DNA of 38,484 nt from Plantactinospora alkalitolerans (GTDB lineage: Bacteria; Actinomycetota; Actinomycetes; Mycobacteriales; Micromonosporaceae). The stretch is taken from the NCBI RefSeq assembly GCF_015690345.1, contig NZ_JADPUN010000147.1, positions 1 to 38,484 of the forward strand, in the 5' to 3' direction. Made by a program: the position numbers and the translations under genes. Position 1 is the stretch's first letter; each line of letters begins with the position of its first letter. The notes below the pieces were generated by a model. The model had not been told where the DNA came from. It was given only the letters and a program-made list of their open reading frames with translations, and searched no databases. Positions 178 through 22,850 of the stretch are shown here, in pieces.

Positions 178-1344
178 CTAGAAGCCGCGCCTGCTGTTCG
201 GATCCGAGGCGACGGCGAGCACCTGCTGCAGGCCCCGGTAGGCCGGCTTGGGCTGGAAGTTCTCGTCCAACGGGGTGGCCGAGCCCTGGCCTTCGAAGAA
301 GCCGGGGACCCAGGAGTACTTGTCGGTGAAGCCCCACACGGTGAACATCACGCAGCGCGGGGTGAGCAGGCACGCCTGCAGGAGGGTGTTGAAGCTACCC
401 ACCTGTCCGGCCGTCTTCCAGTTGTCGACCGGCAGGTCGAACCGGACGTCGACCTCGGTGAACGCCGTCTGCAGGCCGAGCTTGTCGAACCGGCGCAGGT
501 TCTCCGGCGCGTCGATCGGCAGCGGGTACTGGAGATCCAGGTGGCCCTGGAAGCCCATGCCGTGCAGCGGGGCCCGCTGCTTGAGCAGTTGCTTGGCCAG
601 CTCGTAGTACGCGGTGCTCTTCGGGTTGATGTTGTCGGTCGCGTAGTCGTTCAGGAAGAGCTTGGCGTTCGGGTCGGCCGCGTGCGCCCAGCGCAGGGCG
701 TCGGCGATGTAGTTCGGGCCGAGGTGCTGCCGGAAGATGGTGTCCCGGAGCACCGGGTTGTCGCCGTCGGTGAACGCCTCGTTGACCACGTCCCAGGCCC
801 GGACCTTGCCCCGGAAGTGCTTCACCACGGTGGTGATGTGGTCCCGGACGATGGTGCGCAGTTCGGCGGGGCTGATCGAGCCGTCGGCGACACCCTCGTT
901 GAGCCAGGCCGGCGCCTGGCTGTGCCAGAGCAGGGTGTGACCGTGCACCTTCTGCCCGTTGCGCCGGGCGAAGTCGACCAGCTCGTCGGCCGGGCCCCAG
1001 TTGTACTCACCTCGGGTCGGCTCCAGCGACTCCCACTTCATCACGTTCTCCGCGGTCACCGCGGAGAACTCCCGGGCCACCAGGGAGCGGTACTGGGGGT
1101 CGGCGTCCAACGCGGCCATGTCGACCGCGGTGCCGATGCCCAGGCCGTGCTTCCTGGCCAGGGTCCGCAGCGGCAGGTCCGTGGTCTGGGCCGGCGGTAC
1201 GTGGGCGACGCTGCCGCCGGTCGCCACTTTCGTGGCGGCCCCGCCGGTCACCTGCGTCGGCGCGGCGGTGGCGGTCGATGGTCCGACCGAGTAAAGGGAG
1301 CCGGCGGCCAGTACGCCGACGAGAACGATCCGAAGCTTTCTCAT
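178..1344 (-). CDS. Secreted endo-1,4-beta-xylanase, glycoside hydrolase family 10
   Basis: 388 aa. GH10 enzymes cut internal beta-1,4 bonds of xylan outside the cell. An N-terminal signal peptide (MRKLRIVLVG then a hydrophobic stretch ending near ATA) is followed by one GH10 barrel. Visible motifs are HGHTLLWHSQ, the acid/base motif WDVVNEAF (Glu189) and the nucleophile motif TEVDV (Glu297). No carbohydrate-binding module follows. The start at 1344 is chosen because GGAGG sits just upstream and the signal peptide begins there; an in-frame extension to 1494 is Arg-rich and not signal-like. The gene follows the anchored solute-binding protein on the same strand after a 229-bp gap. That gap holds a 14-bp palindrome at 1479-1492, a possible operator. 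Xylan specificity is inferred from the family. Confidence 0.93.
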   Translation of the reverse strand: MRKLRIVLVGVLAAGSLYSVGPSTATAAPTQVTGGAATKVATGGSVAHVPPAQTTDLPLRTLARKHGLGIGTAVDMAALDADPQYRSLVAREFSAVTAENVMKWESLEPTRGEYNWGPADELVDFARRNGQKVHGHTLLWHSQAPAWLNEGVADGSISPAELRTIVRDHITTVVKHFRGKVRAWDVVNEAFTDGDNPVLRDTIFRQHLGPNYIADALRWAHAADPNAKLFLNDYATDNINPKSTAYYELAKQLLKQRAPLHGMGFQGHLDLQYPLPIDAPENLRRFDKLGLQTAFTEVDVRFDLPVDNWKTAGQVGSFNTLLQACLLTPRCVMFTVWGFTDKYSWVPGFFEGQGSATPLDENFQPKPAYRGLQQVLAVASDPNSRRGF

Positions 1345-1573
1345 CCGTTCGAAACCTCCACGGGTGTGGTTCGTAGTCGGTCGCCGGAGCGACCGGCGTT
1401 GTCGCGCACGGGTGGGACGGGTGCGCGTGGATCTCCCCCGGAACGCGAGTCGGGCATCGATTTGCTGCACGATCCGTTGTCGGAGATCCGACACTCCTTG
1501 CGAGAGACCGTGGCCTGTTCGAACGGCGTCGAGCGTGCTAGAAGATCACCCGGTGGCGGGTGGGACAGTGCCG

Positions 1574-3016
1574 TCAGTCCCCACCAGCCATGACCGCCGC
1601 GAACTGTTCCGGGGTGAGTTCCGATCTGAACAGTCGTTGGAGGTTGGCGTTCAACCTCGTCGCGGTGGCCGGATCCAGCGCCTGATCCCAGGCCAGGCTG
1701 TACGAGGGAGCCTTCGCCACCAACTCGTGTACCGAGATGGCGAACCCGGCGTGGTCCGTGTCCCGGAGCCGGTCGACGGCGTCGGTGACCGGGGGCACCT
1801 CGCCGTCGGTGACCAGATCGTCGAGATAGGTGTCGGCCGCGACGTCCCGGACGAACCGGAGCGCCGCCTCCCGATCACGACTGCGGGCGGTGACAGAGAA
1901 GTACTGGGCCGGAATCCCGACCAGGTCCGCCGGATTCCCCGCCCCGCCGGCAACGGCCGGGAACGGCACCCAGCCCAGTTGGTCGCCGAGGACGAAGTCC
2001 GGGTTCCGGGCGAGCTGGGTGGGGTACTCCCAGGTCCCCATCAGCTCCATCGCGGCCCGACCGGTCGCGAGCAGGCGAGGTGCGCTGCCGTCGTCGTAGC
2101 TCAGCGAGGAGAAGTCGTCGCCGAACGCGCCCCGCTCGGCGAGGTCCCGCGCACTCCGTAATGCCTCTAACACGGCGGGTTTCGTCCAGGCGCCCGGTCT
2201 GCCGAGCGCGATGTCGGCCGTGGTGCCGGGGCCACCGATCCGTTCGGCCAGGTACATCACGTACATCAGCTCCGTCCATCCCTGGGCGCCGCCCAGGGCC
2301 AACGGGGTGATCCCGTCGGCCTTGAACGCGTCCACCAGGGAGACCAGTTCGGCGTAGCTGCGCGGTGGAGTCCGCCCGGACCGGGCGAAGACCTCCTTGT
2401 TGTAGAAGAGCACGGTCGGATGCGTTCCACTCATCGGCAGTCCGTACTGCCGGCCGTCGACGATGCCGCCGGCCAGAGCACTGGGCAGGAACCTGCCGGC
2501 CGTCGACGGCCCGGTCAGGTCGGCCAGCCGGCCGTCGCGGGCGAGTCGGGCGAGGGCGGCGCCGCCCCAGCTGACGAAGACGTCCGGGCCGTCCGGGGAG
2601 TCGACCGAGGTACGCAGCTTCTCCTTGTAGTCGTCGTTGCTGAAGGTCAGGAGTTCGACGTGCACCTCGGCGGACCTGTTGTACCGGGCGACCAGTTCCC
2701 GCAGGGCCGAGGTCTGGCCCGGCGGGTTGATGGCCCACACCCGGATCGTTGCCGTACCGCCGTCCGCCGGTGGCGCCGGCGACAATCCCCGGCCCCGGGT
2801 CAGTTCCGCGCTGGTCAGGGTGACCGCCAGGATCAGGATCGCGATCGCCGTGCTGGCGATCCGGACGCGCCGCCGCCGTCTCCGCCGAAAGCGCTCGCGG
2901 ATCGTCGTGATCGCACCGGGGGCGGCCGGTGGCAGCGCGGCCTGCGCCTCCGCGAGGGTGGCGACGACCTCCTCGGCGAGCATCCGATCATCCACGGACC
3001 TGATCTTGTCAGCCAC
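1574..3016 (-). CDS. Membrane-anchored extracellular solute-binding protein, putative sigma-factor partner
   Basis: 480 aa. Residues 1-50 form a cytoplasmic segment with a helical stretch (DDRMLAEEVVATLAEAQAA) and an Arg-run. A single membrane helix spans about 52-72. From about residue 90 to the end is a family-1-type sugar-binding domain (starting TIRVWAIN, then RELVARYN, GLPMSGTHPTVLFYNKEVF, GTWEYPTQLA). No lipobox cysteine is present and no permease genes lie nearby. The GTG start at 3016 overlaps the last 8 nt of the sigma gene and has GGAG five bases upstream, so the two are probably translationally coupled. Anti-sigma-like proteins beside SigE-family sigmas often have a short helical N-terminus, basic patch and one membrane helix. 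A ligand-sensing anti-sigma role is therefore inferred. An ordinary transporter binding protein with an uncleaved anchor is the alternative. Confidence 0.8.
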   Translation of the reverse strand: MADKIRSVDDRMLAEEVVATLAEAQAALPPAAPGAITTIRERFRRRRRRRVRIASTAIAILILAVTLTSAELTRGRGLSPAPPADGGTATIRVWAINPPGQTSALRELVARYNRSAEVHVELLTFSNDDYKEKLRTSVDSPDGPDVFVSWGGAALARLARDGRLADLTGPSTAGRFLPSALAGGIVDGRQYGLPMSGTHPTVLFYNKEVFARSGRTPPRSYAELVSLVDAFKADGITPLALGGAQGWTELMYVMYLAERIGGPGTTADIALGRPGAWTKPAVLEALRSARDLAERGAFGDDFSSLSYDDGSAPRLLATGRAAMELMGTWEYPTQLARNPDFVLGDQLGWVPFPAVAGGAGNPADLVGIPAQYFSVTARSRDREAALRFVRDVAADTYLDDLVTDGEVPPVTDAVDRLRDTDHAGFAISVHELVAKAPSYSLAWDQALDPATATRLNANLQRLFRSELTPEQFAAVMAGGD

Positions 3017-3512
3017 GTACGCTCCGAATCGCTGGCTGGGTAGTCGCCAGATGTGCCCGAAGGGACCGTCTGGCTCTCGCGTACCGGCTGGAAACCGTGC
3101 CCGGCGGATCGCCACAGATGGCCGCGATCTCGCTGAACGTGTATCGGTAGAGCACGTGGAGCACCACGACGGTGCGTTCGGGCTTGCCGAGTTCCTGCAA
3201 TGCCTGCCACAGCGCGCCGTTGGTCACCACGGCACCGGCCGGATCGTCGGGCCGGTGGTCCACGTCGTCGCTCGGCACCTCCCGGCGCGACCGCCGCCAC
3301 CGGCTCACGTTCCGGGTCACGATCACCTGCCGGGCGTACGCCTCGGGGTTGTCCCGGGCCTTGCGCCACCGCTGCCACACCTCGACCACCGCGATCTGGG
3401 CCAGATCGTCCGCCTCGGCCGCACTGCCGCTGATCAGGTACGCGAATCGCCTCAGCGCGTCCAGGCGCGCCCGAGCGAACTCCTCGGCGTCGCCGAACGC
3501 GCCACGGGCCAT
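3009..3512 (-). CDS. SigE-family (ECF-type) RNA polymerase sigma factor
   Basis: 167 aa with only sigma regions 2 and 4, as expected for this family. Region 2 spans about residues 8-70 (LDALRRFAYLISGSAAEADDL and the basic RNVSRWRRSRR end). Region 4 spans about 95-155 (ALQELGKPERTVVVLHVL, YTFSEIAAICGDPPGTVSS helix-turn-helix, YARARRSLRAHL). The ATG at 3512 is preferred over a TTG one codon upstream, given GGAGGAGGG just ahead. The stop lies inside the start region of the anchored solute-binding gene. The likely role is to direct polymerase to a small regulon, possibly including the downstream xylanase; that link is inferred from position only. Confidence 0.88.
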   Translation of the reverse strand: MARGAFGDAEEFARARLDALRRFAYLISGSAAEADDLAQIAVVEVWQRWRKARDNPEAYARQVIVTRNVSRWRRSRREVPSDDVDHRPDDPAGAVVTNGALWQALQELGKPERTVVVLHVLYRYTFSEIAAICGDPPGTVSSRYARARRSLRAHLATTQPAIRSVRG

Positions 3513-3675
3513 CAAGGTCCCTCCTCCGGGACGCCGGACGCCGGGCGTCGTCGACTCCAGACGCCGAGCGTCGTCAATCCGTTGCGTCGAACCTATCGGC
3601 TGCGGCCCGGTACATCACGGGTCCGCCGTCGGCCTTGCGGTCAGACCTGTCCCGGTCGCCGCCGAGGAGGCTGAT

Positions 3676-22729: not shown

Positions 22730-22744
22730 CACGGTTAGCACGGT

Positions 22745-22795
22745 TAAGAAGGGTCCCCTCTTATGCAGAAAGCGATAAGAAGGGGCCCTTCCTTA
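22745..22795 (+). terminator. Imperfect hairpin, second copy of the dispersed element
   Basis: Arms at 22745-22763 and 22776-22795 pair with a few mismatches, 15 bp past the multicopper oxidase stop. Read on the minus strand, its first 22 bases match 27-48 exactly. It probably terminates the oxidase transcript. Confidence 0.6.
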
Positions 22796-22850
22796 CCGGC
22801 CCGGCGTGGCCCTGAAGGCGGGAAGTGGTTGGTGCGGATAGGTTGTATGC

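Follow-up and report, generated by a model that had tools for sequence, protein, structure and literature searches.

In the clostridial SigI6/RsgI6 system, which concerns xylan, a membrane protein binds the sigma factor with its cytoplasmic part, crosses the membrane with one helix and carries a polysaccharide-recognizing domain on the outside, and the sigma factor is autoregulated and drives xylanase genes; work in a heterologous host confirmed the promoter motif common to the sigma gene and the xylanase genes (PMC4711584). SigI is described as lacking region 4 and as having a SigI C-terminal domain (PMC4711584), and RsgI signalling is reported to end in proteolysis (PMC12203970). In the actinobacterial groups ECF52 and ECF53, an extracytoplasmic function (ECF) sigma factor and a carbohydrate-binding or glycosidase membrane part form one protein with a zinc-finger region (PMC10766802, PMC8999054). 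In Bacteroides, hybrid two-component and ECF/anti-sigma glycan sensors link transmembrane glycan sensing to degrading enzymes, and in the same source the ECF control of hemicellulase genes is called less understood and the glycan-binding ECF52/53 candidates are given as without experimental validation (PMC10766802). Here, we analyzed the beginning of contig NZ_JADPUN010000147.1 of Plantactinospora alkalitolerans (assembly GCF_015690345.1), where a sigma factor gene, a gene for a membrane-anchored sugar-binding protein (hereafter the fusion) and a gene of glycoside hydrolase family 10 (GH10) follow one another. The window, that is, the whole stretch of DNA analyzed, comprises 38,484 nucleotides (nt). 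We consider it probable that a xylo-oligosaccharide receptor of an ATP-binding cassette (ABC) importer has been fused to the partner module of a SigE-like sigma factor and would release this factor for transcription of the GH10 gene.

All three genes lie on the minus strand, running from 3512 to 178, with the following parts:

3009..3512, minus strand: SigE-like ECF sigma factor of 167 amino acids (aa), with Pfam matches to region 2 and region 4 and 66–97% identity to 12 other loci
1574..3016, minus strand: membrane-anchored sensor and presumed anti-sigma factor (the fusion) of 480 aa, with an 8-nt overlap with the sigma gene
2867..3016, minus strand: cytoplasmic tail of the fusion, residues 1–50, with a helix, an ALP motif and an arginine-rich patch; presumed sigma-binding part, from tail-profile scores
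2810..2866, minus strand: single membrane helix of the fusion, about residues 51–69, from a hydropathy scan
1583..2749, minus strand: outer ABC-type sugar-binding domain of the fusion, about residues 90–478, BxlE-like, with platform residues W247, Y307 and W329, from Pfam, phmmer, profile and fold searches
178..1344, minus strand: secreted GH10 xylanase of 388 aa, PF00331 E 2.4e-98, with the start MRKLRIVLV

Gene order and overlap, domain content, hydropathy topology, receptor family and platform residues are read directly from the sequence. The sigma gene starts at ATG 3512 and stops at 3009, and the fusion gene starts at GTG 3016 and stops at 1574; the 8-nt overlap proposed in the initial annotation is therefore exact, at 3009–3016. 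The other elements of that description, a partner with a single membrane helix, a basic tail and an outer ABC-type sugar-binding domain, followed by a GH10 xylanase on the same strand, were borne out by Pfam and hydropathy. For the xylanase, the PF00331 match covers profile positions 2–309 of 311 (in a scan of the longer open frame from 1494), and the translation contains NEAF and TEVD, which we take to be the active-site motifs of a GH10 xylanase. The window begins at the contig start. In the sigma factor, PF04542 and PF08281 were the only models matched besides overlapping sigma models, which gives regions 2 and 4 and no further sigma domains, as in ECF factors. Its designation as SigE-family is to be corrected to SigE-like: SigE-fam_strep (TIGR02983) was the best NCBIfam model, and its score of 115 bits lies under the family cut-off of 141.55.

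The initial annotation had likened the locus in its logic to SigI/RsgI. This likeness stands, with an unrelated outer domain, in that an autoregulated sigma factor would drive a xylanase gene through a promoter motif shared with its own gene; like the single origin of the fusion and its co-occurrence with the sigma factor described below, this shared promoter-like element is known here from sequence. Membership in the SigI/RsgI system is ruled out, as the fusion has no RsgI N-terminal domain in the Pfam scan and the sigma factor has a normal region 4. The two systems also differ in that the outer part here is a predicted receptor for soluble oligosaccharides, not a carbohydrate-binding module or a GH10 domain, and that one target was found rather than a set. 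As in ECF52 and ECF53, an ECF sigma factor is tied to a membrane protein with a carbohydrate-recognizing outer part; in contrast to them, the locus has two overlapping genes, no zinc finger was matched, and the receptor is of the ABC-importer type. The Bacteroides sensors share the principle of transmembrane glycan sensing and differ in their proteins and their outer-membrane setting.

The outer domain has the fold, sequence family and xylobiose platform residues of BxlE-type receptors. SBP_bac_1 (PF01547) was matched at fusion residues 101–389 (E 3.1e-34), and the closest solved relative by phmmer was 3vxb/3vxc (E 1.2e-99; profile E 9.3e-129), entries that carry the names BxlE and xylobiose–BxlE complex in the fold search. 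The top seven hits of this fold search were BxlE entries, 4g68, 8xba-c and 3zkk, whose titles mention BxlE or the binding of xylan, xylobiose, xylotriose or xylo-oligosaccharides. The xylobiose platform of BxlE is reported as Trp204, Tyr264 and Trp286 (PMC8233162), and the profile alignment placed these at W247 (14 of 14 fusions), Y307 (12 of 14) and W329 (14 of 14). Moreover, 92 columns are conserved among the 87 transporter receptors (in at least 85% of them), and 64 of these columns were retained in at least 13 of the 14 fusions. The outer domain is 36–50% identical to importer receptors of this family, and these data strengthen the earlier guess of a sensor for xylan breakdown products: it likely binds xylo-oligosaccharides. 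Unlike those receptors, the fusion has neither a lipobox, as had been claimed and as its 0 cysteines confirm, nor an adjoining permease, and the tail and membrane helix replace the lipoprotein signal. A few positions depart from the transporter consensus: A153 in most fusions, and M254, V/I368 and A442, which are common to the two sister transporters L025 and L027. The idea that such residues mark a lost permease contact was weakened by the presence of M254, V368 and A442 in these transporters. As a separate observation, no second receptor of the xylo-oligosaccharide family was found in the P. alkalitolerans genome; the next-best match, at 29% identity, adjoins a permease.

The cytoplasmic part of the fusion was compared with partners of related sigma factors in the same genome, where 27 further loci match the sigma factor at E ≤ 1e-10. 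Behind these, 24 partner genes were called (three loci gave no call, and two of the 24 are identical copies). In 23 of the 24, with L179 the exception, a single N-terminal helix begins at residue 37–65 and is preceded by 5–9 Lys/Arg within 15 residues; in the fusion, the hydropathy scan gave one membrane segment, whose best 19-residue window begins at residue 51. With a profile built from 22 of these partner tails, all 13 fusion tails examined scored 21.1–33.5 bits, compared with at most 4.6 bits for 13 shuffled tails and at most 15.2 bits for 94 lipoprotein N-termini (some genes counted twice). The fusion therefore has the layout of this partner class: an overlapping downstream gene, a basic tail of about 40–60 aa, one helix and a large outer part. 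The class differs from it in the outer parts: no solute-binding domain was found by Pfam in any of the 20 partners scanned, whose outer parts, unrelated to the sugar-binding domain of the fusion, comprise one LytR-CpsA-Psr domain, two weak beta-propeller hints and otherwise no convincing family. Because the layout and profile of its tail match these partners, the anti-sigma-like tail of the fusion appears to be the class's own module and the receptor the new part. Assignment to the zinc-finger or class I anti-sigma proteins fails, with no Pfam match to such a domain and no cysteine in the fusion.

Two partners deserve mention in their own right. The one with the LytR-CpsA-Psr outer part lies at L181 1973-3115 (PF03816, E 2e-25). 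At L173/L174, one contig carries the same sigma factor with an identical-looking partner at two places, the copies being inverted relative to each other (23628 minus, 73116 plus), which is either an inverted duplication or an assembly artefact.

The distribution of the fusion was then determined. At E ≤ 1e-50, 82 of 200 Micromonosporaceae genomes matched the fusion, and only part of them aligned from its N-terminus. For the sigma factor, 14 of 354 family genomes matched at E ≤ 1e-45, in 3 of 44 genera, and in a class-wide draw of 296 genomes P. alkalitolerans alone matched it at E ≤ 1e-35. All 14 sigma-bearing family genomes carry the fusion directly behind the sigma gene; the fourteenth (G314, probably Micromonospora sp. 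KC213, locus L088) was found by tblastn only. The search for the same fusion across Micromonosporaceae, suggested in the initial annotation, thus shows it to be rare. Among 13 full-length fusions, that of P. alkalitolerans included, the start lies at −8 nt from the sigma stop in six of seven Plantactinospora and at −4 nt in the remaining measured loci (L049 using ATG 2143), with +1 in L040. In named records, the genera are Plantactinospora (one record being labelled Micromonospora sp. HM5-17), Micromonospora and Amorphoplanes/Nucisporomicrobium. The sigma–fusion–GH10 order is kept in 7 of 7 Plantactinospora genomes, so the co-occurrence with glycoside hydrolase genes that was to be checked holds for GH10 in this genus; the other genera have other downstream genes, and no GH10 or GH43 match was found in the flanks examined of two Micromonospora loci. 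With the 7 of 7 and 14 of 14 conservation, chance neighborhood of the sigma, fusion and GH10 genes is rejected, and the observed gene set is confirmed as real.

Relatives of the fusion without the tail are transporter receptors. In a scan of named genomes, the best 80 loci of 411 confirmed relatives comprised 8 fusions with the sigma gene and 72 others; among these 72, a Cys motif near the mature start was present in 72, by a loose test (C with G, S, A or N as the next residue), and a related permease lay within 3.5 kb in 70, while L091 and L112 had none in the 5 kb examined. Several of the tail-less receptor loci also carry GH43 beta-xylosidase-like genes. The absence of a nearby permease, noted initially, extends to the six other Plantactinospora stretches, which gave 0 BLAST matches to a related permease over more than 6 kb on each side in five stretches (L040 has only 101 bases before the sigma gene); no genome-wide search for an orphan permease was made. 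In one fusion locus, the Actinoplanes-like L098, a sequence about 2.6 kb upstream matches a permease weakly, at 31%. The finding named at the outset as fatal to the proposal, homologues of the fusion that mostly stand beside permease genes and have a cleaved lipoprotein signal, was looked for and did not emerge: 14 full-length fusions stand with the sigma gene and have no lipobox. An ordinary importer receptor is rejected for the lack of a lipobox, the lack of a permease in the flanks examined and the sigma gene always adjoining the fusion. A tree of the 14 fusions and 87 transporter receptors gathers all fusions in a single clade (support 100/99), whose sisters are L025 and L027; nine rows, either duplicates or wrongly labelled, were excluded from it and from the conservation counts (six copies of fusions from named records, L087, L017 and L028). 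Because the fusions are one branch among transporter receptors, the tree indicates a single recruitment of an importer receptor, which we place in an ancestor within Micromonosporaceae.

Promoter-like elements suggest a tie between the sigma factor and the xylanase gene. Three elements were located in the window:

1442..1468, minus strand: predicted GH10 promoter, GCAGC, 17 nt, GCGT(T), present in 7 of 7 Plantactinospora
1478..1493, minus strand: palindrome TGTCGGATCTCCGACA, separated by 9 nt from the −35-like element downstream, from motif comparison
3560..3585, minus strand: predicted sigma-gene promoter, GCAAC, 16 nt, GCGT(C), with one mismatch to GCAGC and no palindrome

A composite of TGTCGG-N6-GACA, 9 nt, GCAGC, 16–17 nt and GCGT precedes the GH10 gene in 7 of 7 Plantactinospora, and the same composite precedes the sigma gene in seven non-Plantactinospora loci, KC213/G314 among them. 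The Plantactinospora sigma gene has a palindrome-free GCAGC-N-GCGT in four of seven genomes. In its exact form, with T in the palindrome middle, the composite was found in 13 of 354 family genomes, once in each and always together with the sigma factor, and in none of the 340 family genomes without it; G314 differs by this middle T and was left out of the count, and a reversed-pattern control gave 2 matches in the 354. This shared element at the GH10 and sigma genes strengthens the proposed link between the sigma factor and the xylanase, and we infer that the sigma factor reads GCAGC-N16/17-GCGT. As an observation on the palindrome itself, the distance from TGTCGG-N6-GACA to the −35-like element is a constant 9 nt at 14 loci (including L044, L047–L051 and L084/L088).

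The initial sensor interpretation is supported overall. We propose that the xylo-oligosaccharide receptor of an ABC importer was joined once to the tail and membrane-helix module that partners SigE-like ECF sigma factors. In the absence of ligand, the cytoplasmic tail would retain the sigma factor at the membrane. Basal xylanase would generate xylo-oligosaccharides, whose binding would bring the two lobes of the outer domain together; this closure would be passed on along the single helix, either as a conformational change or by exposing the helix to proteolysis, and the sigma factor would be freed. It would then read GCAGC-N16/17-GCGT promoters, foremost that of the GH10 gene and, at most loci, that of the sigma gene itself, so that a positive loop would arise. 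The sigma factor is likely a near-dedicated xylanase factor under a recruited receptor in the role of an anti-sigma sensor; tail–sigma binding, the sign of control, the ligand and the route of release are what we infer from this arrangement.

Several results weigh against this proposal. GH10 pairing is limited to Plantactinospora. The Pfam scan of the fusion (E ≤ 0.001) returned only SBP_bac_1 and SBP_bac_8, with no known anti-sigma domain in the tail, and the AlphaFold model of the fusion, from a 13-row alignment, is poor (predicted local distance difference test score, pLDDT, 61; predicted template-modelling score 0.57; tail below 50) and served only as query for the fold search. Y307 of the platform is replaced by Leu in two fusions, and H430, present in 13 of 14 fusions, is fusion-specific, compared with Tyr in 87 of 87 transporters. 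The element before the sigma gene has one mismatch in P. alkalitolerans and two in L038, and none is present in L039. The composite pattern was derived from these very loci, and the independent evidence is therefore limited to its lack in other genomes and to there being one copy per genome. A looser −35/−10 pattern was not enriched in the P. alkalitolerans genome, with 10 matches compared with 8 in the control; eight of the 10 lie inside other predicted genes, one (L193) lies too near a contig end to be judged and one is that of the GH10 gene, so no wider regulon was found.

A different reading of the same parts, which we regard as unlikely, is that the membrane protein acts positively, by recruiting or activating the sigma factor, or that it senses a different sugar, such as a decorated xylan oligomer. 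The sign of control is not readable from sequence, and the tail matches no known anti-sigma family; the residues M254, V/I368 and A442 shared with L025 and L027 suggest a ligand shift that preceded the fusion, and H430 is fusion-specific. However, overlapping downstream membrane partners in ECF systems are usually negative regulators, and the xylobiose platform residues are retained. It is less probable still that the GH10 gene is controlled by a regulator binding the TGTCGG-N6-GACA palindrome and that the sigma factor has other targets. The palindrome is the most conserved part of the composite, at its constant spacing, and in three of the seven non-Plantactinospora loci (L047, L050 and L051) a second GCAGC-N-GCGT points from this palindrome in the other direction, before unlike divergent genes. 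Yet the palindrome and element occur only in genomes with this sigma factor, the exact Plantactinospora palindrome is found once per genome, and a regulator added to the sigma factor, rather than replacing it, fits better. Finally, anchored receptors serving importers exist, but it is very improbable that the fusion is mainly such a receptor with its permease elsewhere, beside the sigma gene by chance or in a double duty, given its presence in all 14 sigma-bearing family genomes of three genera, a tail that resembles sigma-partner tails and not lipoprotein N-termini, and the lack of a related permease flanking six Plantactinospora loci.

The novelty of the proposed anti-sigma sensor lies in the position of an already known type of receptor within ECF sigma/anti-sigma control. 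No solute-binding sensor on an ECF partner was found in the open-licence literature, a coverage outside which the main ECF surveys (doi 10.1093/nar/gkaa1229, PMC4518836) lie. We consider it slightly more likely than not that the locus is an oligosaccharide switch of two proteins and a single membrane pass, dedicated to essentially one enzyme, and that, as a bolder extension, the many SigE-like pairs of actinomycetes are modular, with a tail and helix carrying exchangeable outer receptors. At most partners of the at least 27 further SigE-like sigma loci, the outer domain is uninformative on what is sensed. In the present locus, a ligand class can be told from the outer domain and a target from the adjoining promoter; therefore the whole partner class becomes testable in one system. 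If true, the proposal describes a small natural xylo-oligosaccharide switch and, if receptors are modular, a case with both an identifiable ligand class and an identifiable target.

In five Actinoplanes-like loci (L047–L051), the fusion is followed by a gene for a secreted protein of 534–539 aa, about 20–50 nt behind the sigma operon (e.g., L050 10028-11641). This protein has a GGASQGAY motif and a weak alpha/beta-hydrolase likeness (Pfam E 5e-4, below the cut-off). Its best match against the Protein Data Bank had E 0.12, and the AlphaFold model, from four of the five loci, reached pLDDT 31. It was found in 8 of 354 family genomes, five with the sigma factor and three without.

A dispersed palindromic repeat, GGAAGGGCCCCTTC, and its kin (25–78 and 22743–22796 among them) gave 6 matches in the window, with 0 expected, and the exact core was present in 11 of 215 loci (some being the same place twice). 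At L039 10292-10305, a repeat of this type lies directly before the sigma gene, at the place of the missing promoter element.

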